Source: Blautia parvula (GTDB taxonomy: Bacteria; Bacillota; Clostridia; Lachnospirales; Lachnospiraceae). From it: DNA of 64,000 nucleotides. Every line of letters starts with the position of its first letter. Position 1 is the stretch's first letter. The notes under the pieces were generated by a model. The model was given only the letters and a program-made list of their open reading frames with translations. It had not been told where the DNA came from and made no database searches. The position numbers and the translations under genes are program-made. The stretch is taken from contig NZ_CP084061.1 of the NCBI RefSeq assembly GCF_020215665.1, forward strand, positions 310,001-374,000, given 5' to 3'. Of the stretch, positions 3,201 to 11,283 are shown piece after piece.

Positions 3201-5272
3201 ACAACAAGCTGAAAAACCAGGGAAAAGAAAACAGCCTGGACAACCAGACAGAAGTATTATACGAATCCTGTCAGGCCATGGAACAGATGGTGACACTGTT
3301 TTACCAGCACAAAGGACTTGGCGATTATAATGGTGACAAGACACTGGCAGCCCGGTACGGCGGCAAGAACAATCTGCCATCCAGCCGTCTGAATATCCGT
3401 TACATGAGAATGTTTTCAGGGGCATTTATGTATGCCGGCGGGCTCCATATCGGTATCGAGTGGGGCAGCGCAGCAGGACTGGCAAACAGTGTACCGGTAC
3501 AGAGTGACAACGGCAGATATGTGAGCGGACAGCTATTTGGCTGGGGAATCGCCCATGAGATTGGCCATATCATCAATCAGCCATCCTATGCCATTGCGGA
3601 AATAACCAACAACTATTACTCCATTCTGGCACAGGCCAAGGAGACGAATGATTCTGTCCGTTATCAATATGCAGATGTATATAAAAAGGTCACTTCAGGG
3701 ACAAAGGGCCGCGCAGAGAGCGTATTTACAAGCCTTGCCATGTATTGGCAGCTCCATCTGGCCTATGATGAGGGATATAATTTCAGGACTTATGATAACT
3801 ATGAGGAGCAGTTTAATAATCTGTTCTTTGCAAGAGTGGATGCATACGCCAGAAATACGGCCATTGCGCCGGCGCCCGGAGGTGTCGCTCTCACAATTCC
3901 AAAAGATGTGGACAACACTCTGATGCGTCTTTCCTGTGCGGCAGCGGAAAAGAACCTGCTTGCATTCTTTGAGCAGTGGGGTATGACGCCGGATTCAGAT
4001 ACTATGGCGTACGCATCACAGTTTGAGGAGGAGACAAGAAGGATCAGCTATATTTCAGATGAAGCAAGAGCATACCGTATTGAGGGCGGAGAAAGCACGG
4101 CAGCACAGACTGCAGTAAGTGCGGATCTTTCATATGTTCCGAACTCCAACCAGGTTACGATCACGCTTTCCAATAATGCGGCTGACCAGAACTCCATGCT
4201 GGGATATGAAATATACAGAAACGGCCGGGTCATCGGGTTTGTGGAGGCGAAAGACGGTACCGTGACATTTACGGATACCATTGCGTCCATGAACAACAGA
4301 GTGTTTACTTATGAGGCAGTGGGATATGACAAGCTGCTGCAGCAGACAGAGAGGGCGGCCATAGACTCTGTGAAAATTTCCAATGACGGAAGTGTGGCGA
4401 AGGATGGATGGAAGATAACTACAAACATGACCTCATCAAGCGACCGTCAGGAGGAAGGAAATGAGGAAAATCCGGAAGGAATCACCATTTCCGGAATCAG
4501 CAGTATTTGCAACAATGACTATGCAGATGTATATACCGGAGAGGCAAAAAACCCGGAGATCGTCATCAGCTTCGGCAGAACCCTTCAGGCCGTTGCCTTT
4601 AAGGTGACAGCCGCTGACGATAAAACAGCAGTCAGGAAATTTGAAGCCTATGTAAGTCAGGACGGAAACCAGTGGACCCCTGTAAAAACAGGAACACTGT
4701 CCTATTCAGGGGATACGGCTGTTTCCTATTTTAACAAAGAGGGGGATTCCTGGCTGTATACCTACGACGCGGCTTATCTGAAGCTGAAAATCAAGGGCCA
4801 GAGTGCGGTCTCCCTGTCAGAGATAGATATTTTAGGACCTACGGGAGACAATGTAGAGCTGCTGGATAAGGGAATCGGCATCCTGGATGAAGATTACAGC
4901 TATGATGCTGAGGGCGGCAGAATACCGGCAGGCTCCCTGATCTTTACAGGGGAATATAAAGGAAATCCTTCCTATAATGTGGTAAAACTGTATGATCAGA
5001 ATGGAAATATCCTGGATGGTTCCCAGTTGATCTTTGCAGAGGTTCCGGCAGAAGGGGAATTAGGTGAGGTCTCCTCCGGTACCTGGATCTACTATATGGA
5101 ACCGGATCAGATTCCATCCGGTGTGACAAGCGTCAGAGCGGAATTATACAGAGTGGACGATGCGCATACAAATGAAGGGGAGCGTCTTGTGAGTGATACA
5201 CTGCCTATGGAAGTGCCTGACCCGCTGCCGCCCATTCATTTGAAGGACAATCATGAGGAGGGGAACGGATGA
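2..5272 (+). CDS. M60-like (mucin-type) metallopeptidase surface protein with dockerin-like module, 5' partial
   Basis: The reading frame is open to the first base of the window, so the true start and signal peptide lie upstream. The first ATG at 26 sits inside a repeat and is used only for numbering. Residues 1-80 are degenerate ESGKxGTAExQT-type repeats. Residues 211-263 hold two Ca-binding loops (DVNRDGVIDEQD, DLNQDQSVDLVD), a dockerin type I pattern. A beta-rich region and two fibronectin III-like domains follow (about 435-620), then an F5/8-like sugar-binding domain (about 625-790). The catalytic region contains HEIGH (1177-1181) and the third zinc ligand Glu1192 in AEITNN, the gluzincin arrangement of PF13402/M60 proteases that attack glycosylated mucins. 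A second F5/8-like domain lies near 1480-1610. No C-terminal anchor is seen, so attachment through the dockerin to the downstream cohesin-like protein is plausible (inference). The TGA overlaps the next ATG (ATGA). Confidence 0.85.
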   Translation, partial: NAEAAEEQMGESGKEGTTGILSGESGKEDTTGILAGESGKKETAEEQTGESGKAGTAEKQTEESGKAGTAEEQTEASGKEGAAGEQMAGDPDAQKGEGALLSETGAVVQKGRLHLSLLYTLPYSDPEALNRGLQAVLTGGGRQLTASFSMQEGEGVSKKAEASFTDLEPGQYHLSISGDSFASYDQDVEIQAMEQKMQFLDVYTGMDFSDMEKHPGVMGYGDVNRDGVIDEQDKSGLVLAVHQESTDSIYDLNQDQSVDLVDLQWLSYSYGFEKTEAYVSRSYLMDEITADVGASTRVSDGSIESILGDGGSVSLEPADGGEISEENPVELQLDLEKRSDITAGALVLTPPRDSANVIRAGSVTVEYDDENGQRQTMEIPISGVSMFALTAAQAVMEPDGTIIINLGKQVAIKKVVIKVTDAGGSSLADISRVEFLNGMEDRIPAPVMNIPDNVSTEPGDKKFTVTWNAQTNVAGYEVMVKKDGKSKVYPTAENSILITSFGTEKMKNNEEYTVLVRSVNGDWSSAYSEPVTVVPKPSKAPDAPENVNISGGYRKLDIAWKMMEDTDFYTLYYREQGTEEFEKKENIKQNKYQLTDLKDGTTYEICLTGTNEMGTGGKSKIYAGETTDINPAVTSNYRLINTPKEGGGLTAHIKSIEYPSSKPETDAAVADNDYTTSWSLASWDAGGYNAGKPSPVITFDQSYEMDRLVVVPDEKQQYTYGYAKTKYWDEDGNEKMIDGHFTQKKSVNGKVYYEFQYSQPFKTNRIQINFAMAWAPADGRISIAEMKFYYYDSLEKEVDGLFADTMHVELREDVTLKTIEELEKRADTPDEATGDYHPKRELLLSDLSYAKELLNDKNAGRVMKVDTAVTKKKDGALGFSGGLNAWQPLGISAHAGEELVVYVGRDDAELGANTNLNLIATQYHAESGNWSKVVVQNLKNGKNEVTIPQIGSLSAEHGGSLYVEFTGNNDALNMSVRVSGGQEIPKLDISNAADEAEAKEAVRAYVEKLNAYVPEISDLHKKFHEGNKESGCDYSYDKKNCILGATDIVLHQMMYSVSAEQILNGINNKLKNQGKENSLDNQTEVLYESCQAMEQMVTLFYQHKGLGDYNGDKTLAARYGGKNNLPSSRLNIRYMRMFSGAFMYAGGLHIGIEWGSAAGLANSVPVQSDNGRYVSGQLFGWGIAHEIGHIINQPSYAIAEITNNYYSILAQAKETNDSVRYQYADVYKKVTSGTKGRAESVFTSLAMYWQLHLAYDEGYNFRTYDNYEEQFNNLFFARVDAYARNTAIAPAPGGVALTIPKDVDNTLMRLSCAAAEKNLLAFFEQWGMTPDSDTMAYASQFEEETRRISYISDEARAYRIEGGESTAAQTAVSADLSYVPNSNQVTITLSNNAADQNSMLGYEIYRNGRVIGFVEAKDGTVTFTDTIASMNNRVFTYEAVGYDKLLQQTERAAIDSVKISNDGSVAKDGWKITTNMTSSSDRQEEGNEENPEGITISGISSICNNDYADVYTGEAKNPEIVISFGRTLQAVAFKVTAADDKTAVRKFEAYVSQDGNQWTPVKTGTLSYSGDTAVSYFNKEGDSWLYTYDAAYLKLKIKGQSAVSLSEIDILGPTGDNVELLDKGIGILDEDYSYDAEGGRIPAGSLIFTGEYKGNPSYNVVKLYDQNGNILDGSQLIFAEVPAEGELGEVSSGTWIYYMEPDQIPSGVTSVRAELYRVDDAHTNEGERLVSDTLPMEVPDPLPPIHLKDNHEEGNG

Positions 5273-6825
5273 AAAGAATGAAGAGCTTATGTATGGTCCT
5301 GATTTTGGCCCTGTTCGTGACTTATATACCCGTGCGCGCCGCAGAGCAGGATGATACAATGATCAAAATGCAGCAGAAGGATACGAGCCAGGTGGAACTG
5401 GCTCTGTACCCCAATGCAGATATGATAAAGAACCACGCAACAACACTCAGGATTCAGATGCAGATAAAGGAGACGGAAAGCGGGAGTATCCGTGATGTCC
5501 GGTTTGCTTTCTCAGAGGATTTACAGAATGATTGCAGAATCCGGGAGGCTATTTATGAAAACGGTATTCTGGACATTTATCTGTCATCATCAGGCGCCTT
5601 GTTTGAACAGGCCCGGGATGTAACAATCGGTACAATTTCAGGGACTCCCAGCAATGAAATGTTCCGGGCTTTTGTAATGCCTGTGAGCATAACGTTTGTG
5701 GACCAGAGCCATCAGATGAGATATGTGGATGAGGGAGTGCTGCAGGGGATATCTTATGAATGGGCAGTAGGGGAAAAAGTACCGGACAACCCGGATAACC
5801 CAGACAACCCGGATAACCCGGACAACCCAGATAATCCAGATCCAGACAATCCGGATAATCCAGATAACCCGGACAATCCAGACAATCCGGATAACCCAGA
5901 CAATCCAGACCCGGACAACCCGGATAATCCAGATAACCCGGACAATCCAGACAACCCGGATAACCCAGACAACCCGGACAATCCGGATAACCCAGACAAT
6001 CCGGATCCGGACAACCCGGACAATCCAGATAACCCAGACAACCCGAATAACCCGGACAATCCAGACAACCCGAATAACCCAGATTATCCAGATGGAATAT
6101 GCACAGCTTTCACATACGAGGAACTGGAAAAAGGTCTGGCGGATACCAGTGTTACAAGCCTGATCTACAAGAGCAAAGACGGAAACGGTTTAACCCGGGA
6201 ACAGCAGATGACCGTGTTCAAAAGCCTGAAAGGGACAGAAAGAACCCTTACCGTTATGGCAGAAGAGGACAACAGGCTTTTGTATTCCTGGAAATTTACC
6301 GGAACGGGAATTGCAGATCCGGATATTGCCATGGATTTTACCATTGCCCAAGAGAAAGAAAATAAAAAGGCCGGCAGCCTTATGGCCAAGGGATCAGAGA
6401 ATTTATATCTGGAATTTGCCCATGAAGGAGAGCTTCCGGGACTGGCTGAAATTGAAATTTATGTAGGCAGTAGTTTTAAAGATGGACAGAATCTTTACCT
6501 GTATTATTACAATACCGAGAAGAATGCAATGGAACCGGTACAGAAGAATATTAAGGTTGTGAACGGATATGTGACAGTGCAGATAAAACATTGCTCCACC
6601 TATGTTCTCACCACAAAGCAGATCCGCAAAAGTGAGCAGTTCCCTGCAGTGATTGTGGATAAAACGGATAACACGAAAAAGACACCTGCGAAACCGGCAG
6701 CAAAGACAGCAGCCAAAACAGCTAAAACAGGAGATTCCTCCCCAGTGGAAGCAATGATTCTGCTGGCAGGACTCTCTGCGGCAGTCATGATCATTAGCCG
6801 GAGGAGCAGAAAAAAGAATATTTAA
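5269..6825 (+). CDS. Sortase-type cell-wall protein with cohesin-like domain and Asn-Pro-Asp repeat
   Basis: The 518 aa protein starts with a signal peptide (about 1-25, ending VRAA). Residues about 40-150 form a beta-rich domain whose pattern (VELALYPNAD, then VRFAFSEDL, then ILDIYLSSSG) resembles the cohesin-like modules of gut Firmicute surface proteins. A linker of about 100 residues of NPD/PDN repeats follows, then a globular region (about 285-460) and an Ala/Lys/Thr linker. The C-terminus has TAKTGDSSP, a hydrophobic stretch and RRSRKK, the shape of a sortase sorting signal with a degenerate LPxTG. Translation is coupled to the protease gene by a 4-base overlap. The likely role is a wall-anchored scaffold or adhesin. 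The cohesin call is by eye only. Confidence 0.7.
   Translation: MKRMKSLCMVLILALFVTYIPVRAAEQDDTMIKMQQKDTSQVELALYPNADMIKNHATTLRIQMQIKETESGSIRDVRFAFSEDLQNDCRIREAIYENGILDIYLSSSGALFEQARDVTIGTISGTPSNEMFRAFVMPVSITFVDQSHQMRYVDEGVLQGISYEWAVGEKVPDNPDNPDNPDNPDNPDNPDPDNPDNPDNPDNPDNPDNPDNPDPDNPDNPDNPDNPDNPDNPDNPDNPDNPDNPDPDNPDNPDNPDNPNNPDNPDNPNNPDYPDGICTAFTYEELEKGLADTSVTSLIYKSKDGNGLTREQQMTVFKSLKGTERTLTVMAEEDNRLLYSWKFTGTGIADPDIAMDFTIAQEKENKKAGSLMAKGSENLYLEFAHEGELPGLAEIEIYVGSSFKDGQNLYLYYYNTEKNAMEPVQKNIKVVNGYVTVQIKHCSTYVLTTKQIRKSEQFPAVIVDKTDNTKKTPAKPAAKTAAKTAKTGDSSPVEAMILLAGLSAAVMIISRRSRKKNI
5784..6092 (+). repeat. Asn-Pro-Asp tandem repeat in the wall protein gene
   Basis: Nine-base units of the type CCGGACAAC/CCAGATAAT encode NPD about 30 times, with occasional six-base units giving PDPD. 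The result is a stiff, acidic spacer that would hold the N-terminal domain away from the wall. Silent differences between units show it is not a recent single expansion. Confidence 0.9.
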
Positions 6826-9817: not shown

Positions 9818-9891
9818 AATGGAAATATACAATAAATATTATTTTGCCATATGTAATATTGCTGAATTTTCAGGAATGGGGTGAGAAACGG

Positions 9892-9920
9892 TGGACAGCA
9901 AGTTGTTAAGAAGATATAAT
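9892..9920 (+). promoter_or_regulatory. Promoter of the small hydrophobic peptide transcript
   Basis: TGGACA (9892-9897), 17 bases, TATAAT (9915-9920). The predicted start near 9927 gives a toxin-type mRNA of about 200 bases ending at the hairpin 10091-10122. Confidence 0.65.
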
Positions 9921-9962
9921 TAGATTGCTGTTGACTCTTTCCAGCAGGAAGGAGGTGGCATA

Positions 9963-10049
9963 ATGCACTACATAGATTCATTTTTTATTTTTGTCATGGC
10001 GGGTATAGTTTGTTACTATATTAGTAAATGGTTAGACAGAAAAAAATAA
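9963..10049 (+). CDS. Small hydrophobic peptide, candidate type I toxin (28 aa)
   Basis: The ORF has a very strong ribosome site (AAGGAGGTGG, 9949-9958). The peptide begins MHYIDSFFIF, has one membrane-spanning helix (about residues 5-21) and ends in the positively charged SKWLDRKK, the design of Fst-, TxpA- and holin-like type I toxins. It sits inside a convergent two-promoter arrangement with a shared bidirectional terminator and a 15-base direct repeat, as in par/Fst loci. Function is inferred from architecture. No homologue could be checked. Confidence 0.65.
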   Translation: MHYIDSFFIFVMAGIVCYYISKWLDRKK

Positions 10050-10156
10050 CAACAGCTAGCCTGGGTTATCCTACCCTATAAAGGAAAAAGAAACCCCAGG
10101 AAGATAGCGCTTCCTGGGGTTTCGCTTTTGTGACATAACACACATAGATTCATTTT
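9970..10156. repeat. 15-base direct repeat pair (DR) of the candidate toxin-antitoxin locus
   Basis: ACATAGATTCATTTT occurs at 9970-9984, covering codons 3-8 of the peptide, and again at 10142-10156, beyond the terminator. The second copy is transcribed in antisense, so the small RNA would be complementary to the mRNA at the first copy. Confidence 0.85.
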
Positions 10157-10161
10157 CTGTT
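10084..10161 (-). ncRNA. Candidate antisense antitoxin RNA
   Basis: On the minus strand TTGACA (10196-10191), 17 bases, TAATAT (10173-10168) predicts a start near 10161. The RNA of about 78 nt would cross the second direct repeat and end at the shared hairpin followed by CTTTTTCC. It would pair with the peptide mRNA at the first repeat and at the terminator stem, as RNA II does in par/Fst systems. Prediction from sequence only. Confidence 0.6.
10091..10122. terminator. Bidirectional terminator shared by both small transcripts
   Basis: A perfect 13-bp stem AAACCCCAGGAAG / CTTCCTGGGGTTT has a T-rich tract on each side (CGCTTTT to the right, CTTTTTCC on the minus strand). Confidence 0.85.
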
Positions 10162-10272
10162 ATTTTTATATTAAACTAGAATAACTTAAATGTCAAGAAA
10201 TACATATAATGTTTTTTGGCAAAACCATAAAATGGGGTTTGACTTTGCAAAATCTTGCTTATAAAGGTTTTC

Positions 10273-11283
10273 TTAGAATTTACCTTCTTTAGCCGCTTCC
10301 TCAACAGCCACAGCCACAGCCACAGTCATACCAACCATCGGGTTGTTGCCTGCGCCAATCAGGCCCATCATCTCAACGTGAGCCGGAACAGAAGAAGAAC
10401 CGGCGAACTGTGCGTCAGAGTGCATACGTCCTAATGTATCAGTCATACCGTAGGAAGCAGGACCTGCTGCCATGTTGTCCGGATGCAGGGTACGTCCTGT
10501 ACCGCCGCCGGAAGCAACGGAGAAGTATTTTTTGCCGGCTTCGATACGCTCTTTTTTGTAGGTACCTGCAACCGGGTGCTGGAATCTGGTCGGGTTGGTG
10601 GAGTTACCTGTGATGGAAACGTCAACGTCTTCCTTCCACATGATAGCAACACCTTCACGTACATCGTTAGCGCCGTAGCAGTTAACTTTTGCACGAAGTC
10701 CCTCAGAGTAAGATTTTCTGAATACTTCTTTTAATTCGCCTGTAGCATAGTCGTATTCTGTCTCTACATATGTAAATCCGTTGATACGTGCGATGATCTG
10801 TGCAGCGTCTTTTCCAAGACCGTTTAAGATAACGCGCAGAGGCTCTTTGCGGACTTTGTTTGCTTTCTCAGCGATACCGATAGCACCCTCAGCAGCAGCA
10901 AAGGATTCGTGGCCGGCCAGGAATGCGAAGCACTGAGTATCCTCTTCCAGAAGCATTTTTCCTAAGTTTCCGTGTCCGAGACCTACTTTACGCTGGTCAG
11001 CAACAGAACCCGGGATACAGAAAGCCTGAAGTCCTTCACCGATAGCAGCAGCAGCGTCAGAAGCTTTTTTGCAGCCTTTTTTGATCGCAATGGCAGCACC
11101 TACGGTGTATGCCCATTTTGCATTCTCAAAGCAGATCGGCTGGATGCCTTCTACCATTTTGTAAACATCGAGACCTGCAGCTTTTGTTACTTCTGCAGCT
11201 TCTTCGATGGTGTTAATGCCGTATTTATTCAGAGCAGCAAGAACTTGTTTTTCTCTTCTTTCATATGATTCAAATAAAGCCAT
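10273..11283 (-). CDS. GGGtGRT protein
   Basis: The 336 aa protein carries the name-giving SGGGTGRTLHPDNMAAGPA motif (about residues 258-276) and a Gly/Ala-rich C-terminus (VGMTVAVAVAVEEAAKEGKF). The family is a conserved, soluble Clostridial protein of unknown biochemical role that regularly sits beside a NifU/IscU-like scaffold. Here that scaffold lies 50 bases upstream on the same strand, so the two are co-transcribed. The start follows a clear AGGAGG site. A link to Fe-S or redox chemistry is context inference only. Confidence 0.85.
   Translation of the reverse strand: MALFESYERREKQVLAALNKYGINTIEEAAEVTKAAGLDVYKMVEGIQPICFENAKWAYTVGAAIAIKKGCKKASDAAAAIGEGLQAFCIPGSVADQRKVGLGHGNLGKMLLEEDTQCFAFLAGHESFAAAEGAIGIAEKANKVRKEPLRVILNGLGKDAAQIIARINGFTYVETEYDYATGELKEVFRKSYSEGLRAKVNCYGANDVREGVAIMWKEDVDVSITGNSTNPTRFQHPVAGTYKKERIEAGKKYFSVASGGGTGRTLHPDNMAAGPASYGMTDTLGRMHSDAQFAGSSSVPAHVEMMGLIGAGNNPMVGMTVAVAVAVEEAAKEGKF

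Follow-up and report, generated by a model that had tools for sequence, protein, structure and literature searches.

Organization of the locus

The window analyzed here, a stretch of 64,000 nucleotides from Blautia parvula, contains a short reading frame for a 28-residue peptide with a strong ribosome site, set between two promoter-like sequences that face each other across a hairpin (Table 1). A preliminary description had read these elements as a type I toxin-antitoxin locus. The window sequence, the list of open reading frames and a promoter/terminator scan showed every element in its place, the peptide gene, its ribosome site and the two promoters just as proposed. The hairpin is indeed seen on both strands, with 14 pairs by scan instead of the 13 first counted. 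Likewise, the 15-base direct repeat is exact, but the repeat is longer than had been noted, since a second block lies toward the start codon. This block precedes the exact repeat and reaches the start codon, and its two copies match by eye at eight of nine positions. A predicted duplex between mRNA and antisense RNA spans both blocks (-35.1 kcal/mol). The window's own elements are intact. Elsewhere in the window, an open reading frame at 5269-6825 has a long Pro-Asp-Asn repeat stretch, a C-terminal hydrophobic segment and a basic tail, and resembles a surface protein.

Table 1. Elements of the candidate toxin-antitoxin unit, numbered from the first nucleotide of the window
Feature	Position	Strand	Basis
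Promoter of the peptide mRNA, TGGACA-17-TATAAT	9892..9920	+	Consensus scan, 11/12 matches
5' arm of the mRNA, GCTGTT	9927..9932	+	Sequence; complementary to 10051-10056 and, locally, to CAGC at 9942-9945
Predicted mRNA start	near 9927	+	Position of the -10 box
Anti-Shine-Dalgarno stretch, CTCTTTCC	9935..9942	+	Predicted pairing with the ribosome site (RNA fold)
Shine-Dalgarno sequence, GGAAGGAGG	9947..9955	+	Sequence; family alignment
First repeat block (DRa-like), GTGGCATAA, up to the start codon	9955..9963	+	Family matching profile, -8 to +5; duplex prediction; window match by eye
28-aa peptide, putative membrane toxin, MHYIDSFFIFVMAGIVCYYISKWLDRKK; ATG 9963, stop 10047-10049	9963..10049	+	Open reading frame
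Second repeat block (DRb-like), ACATAGATTCATTTT, codons 3-8	9970..9984	+	Exact repeat; cognate test
Distal complement of the mRNA 5' end, CAACAGC, right after the stop codon	10050..10056	+	Fold; family test
Shared bidirectional terminator hairpin	10090..10123	both	Scan
Copy of the first repeat block, GTGACATAA, read by the antisense RNA	10130..10138	-	By eye; predicted duplex
Copy of the second repeat block, at the antisense RNA 5' end	10142..10156	-	Exact repeat
Predicted antisense RNA, ~78 nt, from 10161 down to 10084	10084..10161	-	Positions of promoter, repeat and terminator
Antisense promoter, TTGACA-17-TAATAT	10168..10196	-	Scan, 10/12

Compared with shuffled sequence, the scanned region holds four promoter-like sites, a number so close to the shuffle level (2.5 ± 1.5) that the window promoters on their own are no proof, and three terminator-like sites (0.9 ± 1.0 in shuffles). 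An exact 15-mer common to the mRNA part and the region past the hairpin arose in 3 of 10,000 dinucleotide shuffles, and in a separate run of 2,000 shuffles the longest shared exact match was also 15. The decisive support for the locus is comparative, across the family of related units described below.

A patchy family of related peptides, also found on mobile elements

Searching 397 genomes of the window's family (Lachnospiraceae, own genome included) with a profile of seven peptides at E <= 0.01 gave matches in 130, a patchy presence with up to seven matches in a single genome. With a 40-peptide profile at E <= 1e-4, 14 of 398 phylum-wide genomes were matched, again counting the window's own. 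The window peptide scores E 9.5e-19 against the family profile, of which it is itself one row. A pattern scan of named genomes yielded at least 588 stretches, at least 289 of which were confirmed and 80 kept. The titles among the matches listed include Hungatella, Robinsoniella, Lactonifactor, Clostridium symbiosum and Anaerobutyricum hallii, and also uncultured Oscillospiraceae, Acidaminococcaceae and Phascolarctobacterium. IMG/VR contributed 36 loci, 27 of them with a scored peptide, and one member peptide other than the window's, used as a query, was found in 4 of 50,697 phage records and 5 of 72,556 plasmids.

Individual carriers include an inovirus (PQ006100.1, positions 2040-2132 of locus L293), where the peptide overlaps an annotated coding sequence on the opposite strand, a 4.5-kb Mogibacterium plasmid (L295, 2705-2797) and a 20.6-kb plasmid of Lactococcus raffinolactis (L294, 2001-2096), each of these peptides having its own repeat. 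The gene tables examined for these three, which are incomplete for the plasmids, annotate no gene for the family peptide. Tandem arrays of at least three family peptides occur at L283 (580-1990), L281, L282 and L286. The earlier suggestion of a separate chromosomal version in Clostridia thus stands as to a separate version but not as to a purely chromosomal one, given these plasmid, inovirus, IMG/VR and array copies, and the version reaches beyond the window's family.

At the level of the peptide, pN/pS is 0.54 for codons in the repeat region and 0.29 in the second half, so that the family is under purifying selection.

The window's 6.25-Mb genome carries a second copy (L002) and a third, degenerate-looking one (L285, at G000:C1:5404276), downstream of which there is no clear terminator or matching repeat; L285 is probably an orphan or decayed unit. 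The second copy aligns over ~3.1 kb at 87% with a further locus (L013). As for the window unit itself, the gene next door (10273-11283) is matched in 14 of the 19 other genomes of the genus. In 13 of the 14 the match ends at or just past the gene end, and in the remaining genome (G002) the contig ends inside the gene. None of these matches in the 19 genomes runs on into the unit, a search that a much diverged unit could escape. In a sister genome (G008) the two neighbors lie ~2.5 kb apart, compared with ~0.5 kb in the window, with other sequence between them (C1, between 3928739 and 3931194). The unit's closest homologue in that genome sits elsewhere, and orthology by place was therefore rejected. 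From its surroundings the unit seems to be accessory, as a mobile element or one lost repeatedly would be.

Most start-codon segments are best matched by their own downstream copy

We examined the repeat in loci whose peptide scores 45 bits or more, 136 loci in all, 133 of which have full flanks. Four duplicates (L001, L017, L024 and L030) and seven loci lacking a start codon near the expected place were left out. Most of the loci come from the best-scoring places of the seven-peptide profile search, of which they are a subset, and places with an internal stop were not included, so that the sample favors intact units. A few came from a DNA search whose query contained the repeat region, while those from the family-profile search, the named-genome scan and IMG/VR were found via the peptide alone. 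The segment from -6 to +33 around each start codon was aligned to its own downstream region and to those of the other 132 loci. The own copy was the best of all for 102 of the 133 segments and at or above the 95th percentile for 125, with a mean score of 31.4 versus 15.7 for the others. Control segments behaved differently: codons 13-25 and the leader were each best matched by their own downstream region in 1 of 133 loci, and reached the 95th percentile in 12 and 3, respectively. With the start-codon segment, eight loci fell below that level, six of them below 0.65 (L056, L021, L135, L042, L062 and L034).

Further loci gave a similar picture. Scores were obtained for 85 from named contigs, 27 from IMG/VR, 3 from plasmids and the inovirus, and 21 from the phylum-wide draw. 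Once overlaps were removed (10 have the same coding sequence as a member of the family set, and a few are duplicates among themselves), the 95th percentile was reached by 67/73, 23/23, 3/3 and 17/21 loci, respectively, the degenerate third copy (L285) being among the four failures of the last group. Overall, 110 of these 120 loci reached it and 10 did not, which brings both sets together to 235 of 253.

For the shape of the repeat we used the loci that align with a score of 24 or more (128 of the 133). Their matched positions fall into two blocks, at about -8 to +5 and +8 to +22 from the start codon, separated by a dip at +6. Read from these alignments, the two-block repeat corresponds to the DRa/DRb layout in the published account of par on which we draw (PMC7472228), with one set at the initiation region and the other read by the antisense RNA.

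Promoters and terminator recur at the same places

A candidate antisense promoter matching at least 9 of 12 consensus positions is found in 106 of 128 loci, compared with 24 of 128 when the other strand of those segments is scored, and the mean score is 9.6 versus 7.5 in shuffles. Its -10 box ends a median of 10 nt before the repeat, so that the antisense RNA would begin with the repeat. On the toxin side, 79 of 127 loci have a promoter of at least 9/12 (mean 8.8, against 7.4 in shuffles). Promoters thus converge, on sequence, in both window and family, as in par. A hairpin of at least five pairs is present in 128 of 128 loci (a raw count, without shuffle control), with a median of 13 bp, and T-runs flank it on both sides in 51 of 128 at a length of at least five T and in 79 of 128 at a length of at least four. 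Together with the hairpin seen on both strands in the window, these hairpins are in keeping with par's shared bidirectional intrinsic terminator.

The par-like topology of the preliminary description, namely convergent RNAs, a shared terminator and a repeat present at both the peptide initiation region and the antisense 5' end, is therefore one that recurs family-wide, and it agrees with what the cited account says of par of pAD1 (PMC7472228). That description had also named what would speak against it, homologues in which repeat and antisense promoter are not conserved; the comparison across 133 plus 120 loci, with 106 of 128 antisense promoters, brought no refutation.

Predicted folding of the mRNA

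In the predicted fold of the window mRNA, the ribosome site is held in an 8-bp hairpin with the anti-Shine-Dalgarno stretch (mean unpaired probability 0.018), and the 5' end, GCUGUUG, pairs with the CAACAGC that immediately follows the stop codon. By prediction, then, the locus shares with par the sequestration of both the ribosome site and the mRNA 5' end.

The second of these pairings can be followed in the family, where a 5' arm was assignable by pattern in 195 of 228 loci. An exact complement of the arm lies near the stop codon in 112 of the 195, compared with a mean of 27 and a maximum of 39 for shuffled arms, which leave kinship in, and with 6 of 195 in a control stretch of the coding region. 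When G-U pairs are allowed, the numbers become 179 of 195, 110 for shuffled arms (kinship again left in) and 72 for the control stretch. Where the complement is exact, it falls within the coding region in 48 loci, past the stop in another 48 and across the stop in 16. Arm types and their complements may partly follow kinship. In the leader, a stem covaries, with G-C in 74 and A-U in 25 at one pair and U-A in 59 and C-G in 28 at another (115 leaders, after 4 misaligned ones of 119 were dropped). The local stem passes an exact-complement test in 76 to 82% of loci with the arms GTTGTC, GCTGTC or GCTGTT, in 3% with GTTACC and in 0% with GTTGCC. An H-type pseudoknot of the leader, made of this stem and an anti-Shine-Dalgarno loop, was considered and set aside: the loop pairing is less clear, and the two leader classes may follow kinship.

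Relation to known systems

The par locus of plasmid pAD1 of Enterococcus faecalis (RNA I/RNA II, Fst) is described as having convergent promoters, a shared bidirectional terminator, two direct repeats at the toxin initiation region, a folded-away ribosome site, a sequestered mRNA 5' end and a membrane peptide of ~30 residues with a charged tail (PMC7472228). As predicted here, the window locus is alike in all these features of the cited description. It differs in that its peptide falls below the cut-offs of the Fst models, that PxxxG occurs in 0 of 252 peptides of the family, and that the second repeat block lies within the coding region (codons 3-8). In this family the mRNA 5' end is predicted to pair with an element at the stop codon, which in 48 of 195 loci falls within the coding sequence. 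The same source reports that the U-turn motif in the terminator loop is absent from some par homologues. On the features compared, a par-type architecture is supported by sequence.

The peptide had been said to lie outside the known Fst family, and the models agree: none of 40 members reached the 26-bit cut-off of NF033608, and membership is not supported. Eleven of the 40 match this model at E up to 1, the best at 4.7e-4 (19.9 bits, over the full model, and not the window peptide, which scores 11.9 bits). The Pfam models Fst_toxin (PF13955) and Ldr_toxin (PF13940) match 2 and 6 of the 40, at best 0.022 and 0.019, and a profile-profile comparison (hhalign) with three Fst peptides of one genome was not significant (probability 2.7%). 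The family nevertheless resembles Fst/Ldr peptides in its helix, conserved tryptophan, charged C-terminus and weak full-length match in the best member. The tryptophan between helix and charged C-terminus, expected of Fst/Ldr toxins, is found after residue 15 in 249 of 252 unique peptides and is W23 in the window. As for the P/D/S/TxxxG helix motif, the window peptide has FVMAG there, and [PDST]xxxG occurs in 117 of 252; the motif is a soft criterion, since the cited account places it in 'the majority' of toxins only (PMC7472228).

One contig (G725:C10, locus L296, 1005-1670) carries a family unit with its own repeat ~500 bases from an Fst gene that does exceed the cut-off (35.4 bits). By eye, this Fst gene has its own repeat, terminator and facing promoter, the repeat lying over leader and start codon. 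The family unit and this Fst unit share their layout, and common descent of the two peptides is likely. A further terminator-plus-repeat-like stretch is seen by eye at ~1815-1880 of the same locus, with no obvious peptide.

Kinship might instead lie with the C. difficile type I toxins (NF047374; CD2517.1-RCd8 and relatives), an alternative that overlaps the preferred one and differs from it in kinship only. These toxins too are clostridial, have a convergent antisense RNA and are associated with prophages (PMC6563280), and their model matches more members than NF033608 does, 18 of 40 at E up to 1, with a better best value (1.4e-4). The matches listed score at best 21.5 bits, far under the cut-off of 60, and cover little beyond the helix; the window peptide itself had no match to the model in the NCBIfam scan. 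The C. difficile toxins are 34 to 59 residues long, with phage homologues that have lysine-rich tails (PMC6563280), and the two-block repeat, a published hallmark of par, is not described for C. difficile in the parts of the clostridial review consulted (PMC6563280). We consider this kinship unlikely.

Among RNA families, Rfam SpF66_sRNA (RF02442) of Streptococcus gives a full-length match over the predicted mRNA of the locus, at 9927-10134 with 28.3 bits, and 6 of 11 other loci scanned do so with up to 36.4 bits, all under the gathering score of 42. Window matches to the His leader, PyrR and others are likewise below gathering score, look like terminator hairpins and were discarded. For the window peptide, Pfam returned no match and NCBIfam none above cut-off, and sequence searches of Pfam, NCBIfam, PHROGs and PDB placed the 40 members scanned in no family with confidence. 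A hit to phrog_738 (25 of 40 members, best 1e-4) carries no function. Among the entries listed from the open-licence literature searched, none described this peptide family. The kind of system is already known; the clade, its size, the large-scale privacy of its repeats and the stop-codon element were not found described there. Units in asparagiforme that figure in an earlier survey may be family members.

Repeats appear to be private to each unit

We compared repeats within and between genomes using 128 loci of 90 genomes, the five loci without a clear repeat being left out. Non-cognate pairs from the same genome score 15.7 on average (98 ordered pairs, maximum 23), close to the 15.3 found between genomes, with 32.1 for a segment and its own copy. 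To judge by these scores, paralogues in one genome do not share repeats.

The four-unit array L283 illustrates how this looks among close neighbors. Mean identity is 91% in promoter and leader and 79% in the rest of the coding region, compared with 74% and 66% in the two repeat blocks, 72% in the terminator stretch and 55% in the second-block copy. In all four units the segment finds its highest score in the unit's own copy, although unit 1 reaches 30 with that of unit 2 (39 with its own) and the margins come to 1 to 6 points when just the second block is compared. Apparently, a short private repeat assigns each copy to its own antisense RNA. Specificity of this kind has precedents: two par-type systems of E. 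faecalis were known to give no cross-protection, their non-interference in one cell being ascribed presumptively to poorly conserved DRa/DRb in the account cited (PMC7472228), and antitoxin action in C. difficile is reported as mostly cognate-only (PMC6563280).

Discussion

The locus is best explained as a type I toxin-antitoxin unit laid out like enterococcal par, a reading to which we assign a probability of roughly 0.86. Its anatomy, family-wide recurrence, cognate repeat matching, purifying selection and covarying RNA complementarity can be read from the genomes compared, while transcription, pairing in cells, toxicity, unequal stability of the two RNAs and function are what we infer. In this mechanism, an RNA of ~205 nt (~9927-10131) would encode the 28-residue peptide, which has a single membrane helix and is presumably toxic in excess. 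Opposite to it, an RNA of ~78 nt would start at the copy of the two-block repeat and stop at the same hairpin. Pairing of the two RNAs, both at the terminator and along the repeats, would mask the start codon and codons 1-8 and thereby block translation. In the mRNA alone, the anti-Shine-Dalgarno stretch would fold the ribosome site away, and closure of the 5' end on the stop-codon element would hold translation back and protect the mRNA. If the antisense RNA were lost, for instance along with a plasmid, phage or chromosomal segment, the peptide would be released. Counting against a par-like unit are the 8 of 133 and 10 of 120 loci that fail the repeat test, the T-runs in 51 of 128 and toxin promoters in 79 of 127 loci, the accessory look of the unit and the third same-genome copy without a clear terminator or matching repeat.

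A second alternative accepts the antisense RNA and drops the toxin: the gene would encode a small membrane protein that is useful and not toxic, for example a modulator of a transporter or envelope enzyme, whose level a cis-antisense RNA keeps down. The toxicity is indeed putative, the locus is chromosomal here and the peptide family shows purifying selection. An addiction-type element is nonetheless a better fit to the several copies, with unlike repeats, in many genomes (up to seven matches), to the tandem arrays, to the plasmid, inovirus and IMG/VR copies and to the patchy presence in 130 of 397 genomes, which leaves a non-toxic role improbable. That the locus is a decayed remnant, or that promoter-like, repeat and hairpin sequences came together by chance, is very improbable indeed: near-chance promoter numbers and a 15-mer seen in 3 of 10,000 shuffles weigh little against cognate repeats that reach the 95th percentile in 125 of 133 and 110 of 120 loci, promoters that recur in place and intact window elements.

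Beyond the par-like unit itself, we tentatively propose, as an idea that is quite possible though short of probable, that these loci form a very large Clostridia clade in which the opening codons of the toxin also serve as a private RNA address and, in many copies, its final codons also serve to close the RNA. The units would increase in number, travel on phages and plasmids and line up in tandem arrays, their repeats diverging until each antitoxin silences its own toxin only, and the peptide N-terminus would be shaped by RNA recognition and not by protein function. The first half of the peptide might simply be under weaker protein constraint, and we hold the proposal at this level because such constraint could explain why that half evolves faster.

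About a third of the Lachnospiraceae genomes sampled carry the peptide, yet the protein models tried do not recognize it. If the peptide is a toxin, it would represent a hidden addiction system that is common among gut Clostridia and the mobile elements they carry. With 235 of 253 loci at or above the 95th percentile, the matched repeat pairs let one ask directly how antisense RNAs separate paralogous toxins. Should the address-driven proposal be true, each unit would be a separately addressed addiction element, and the arrays would be a natural series of orthogonal antisense switches.
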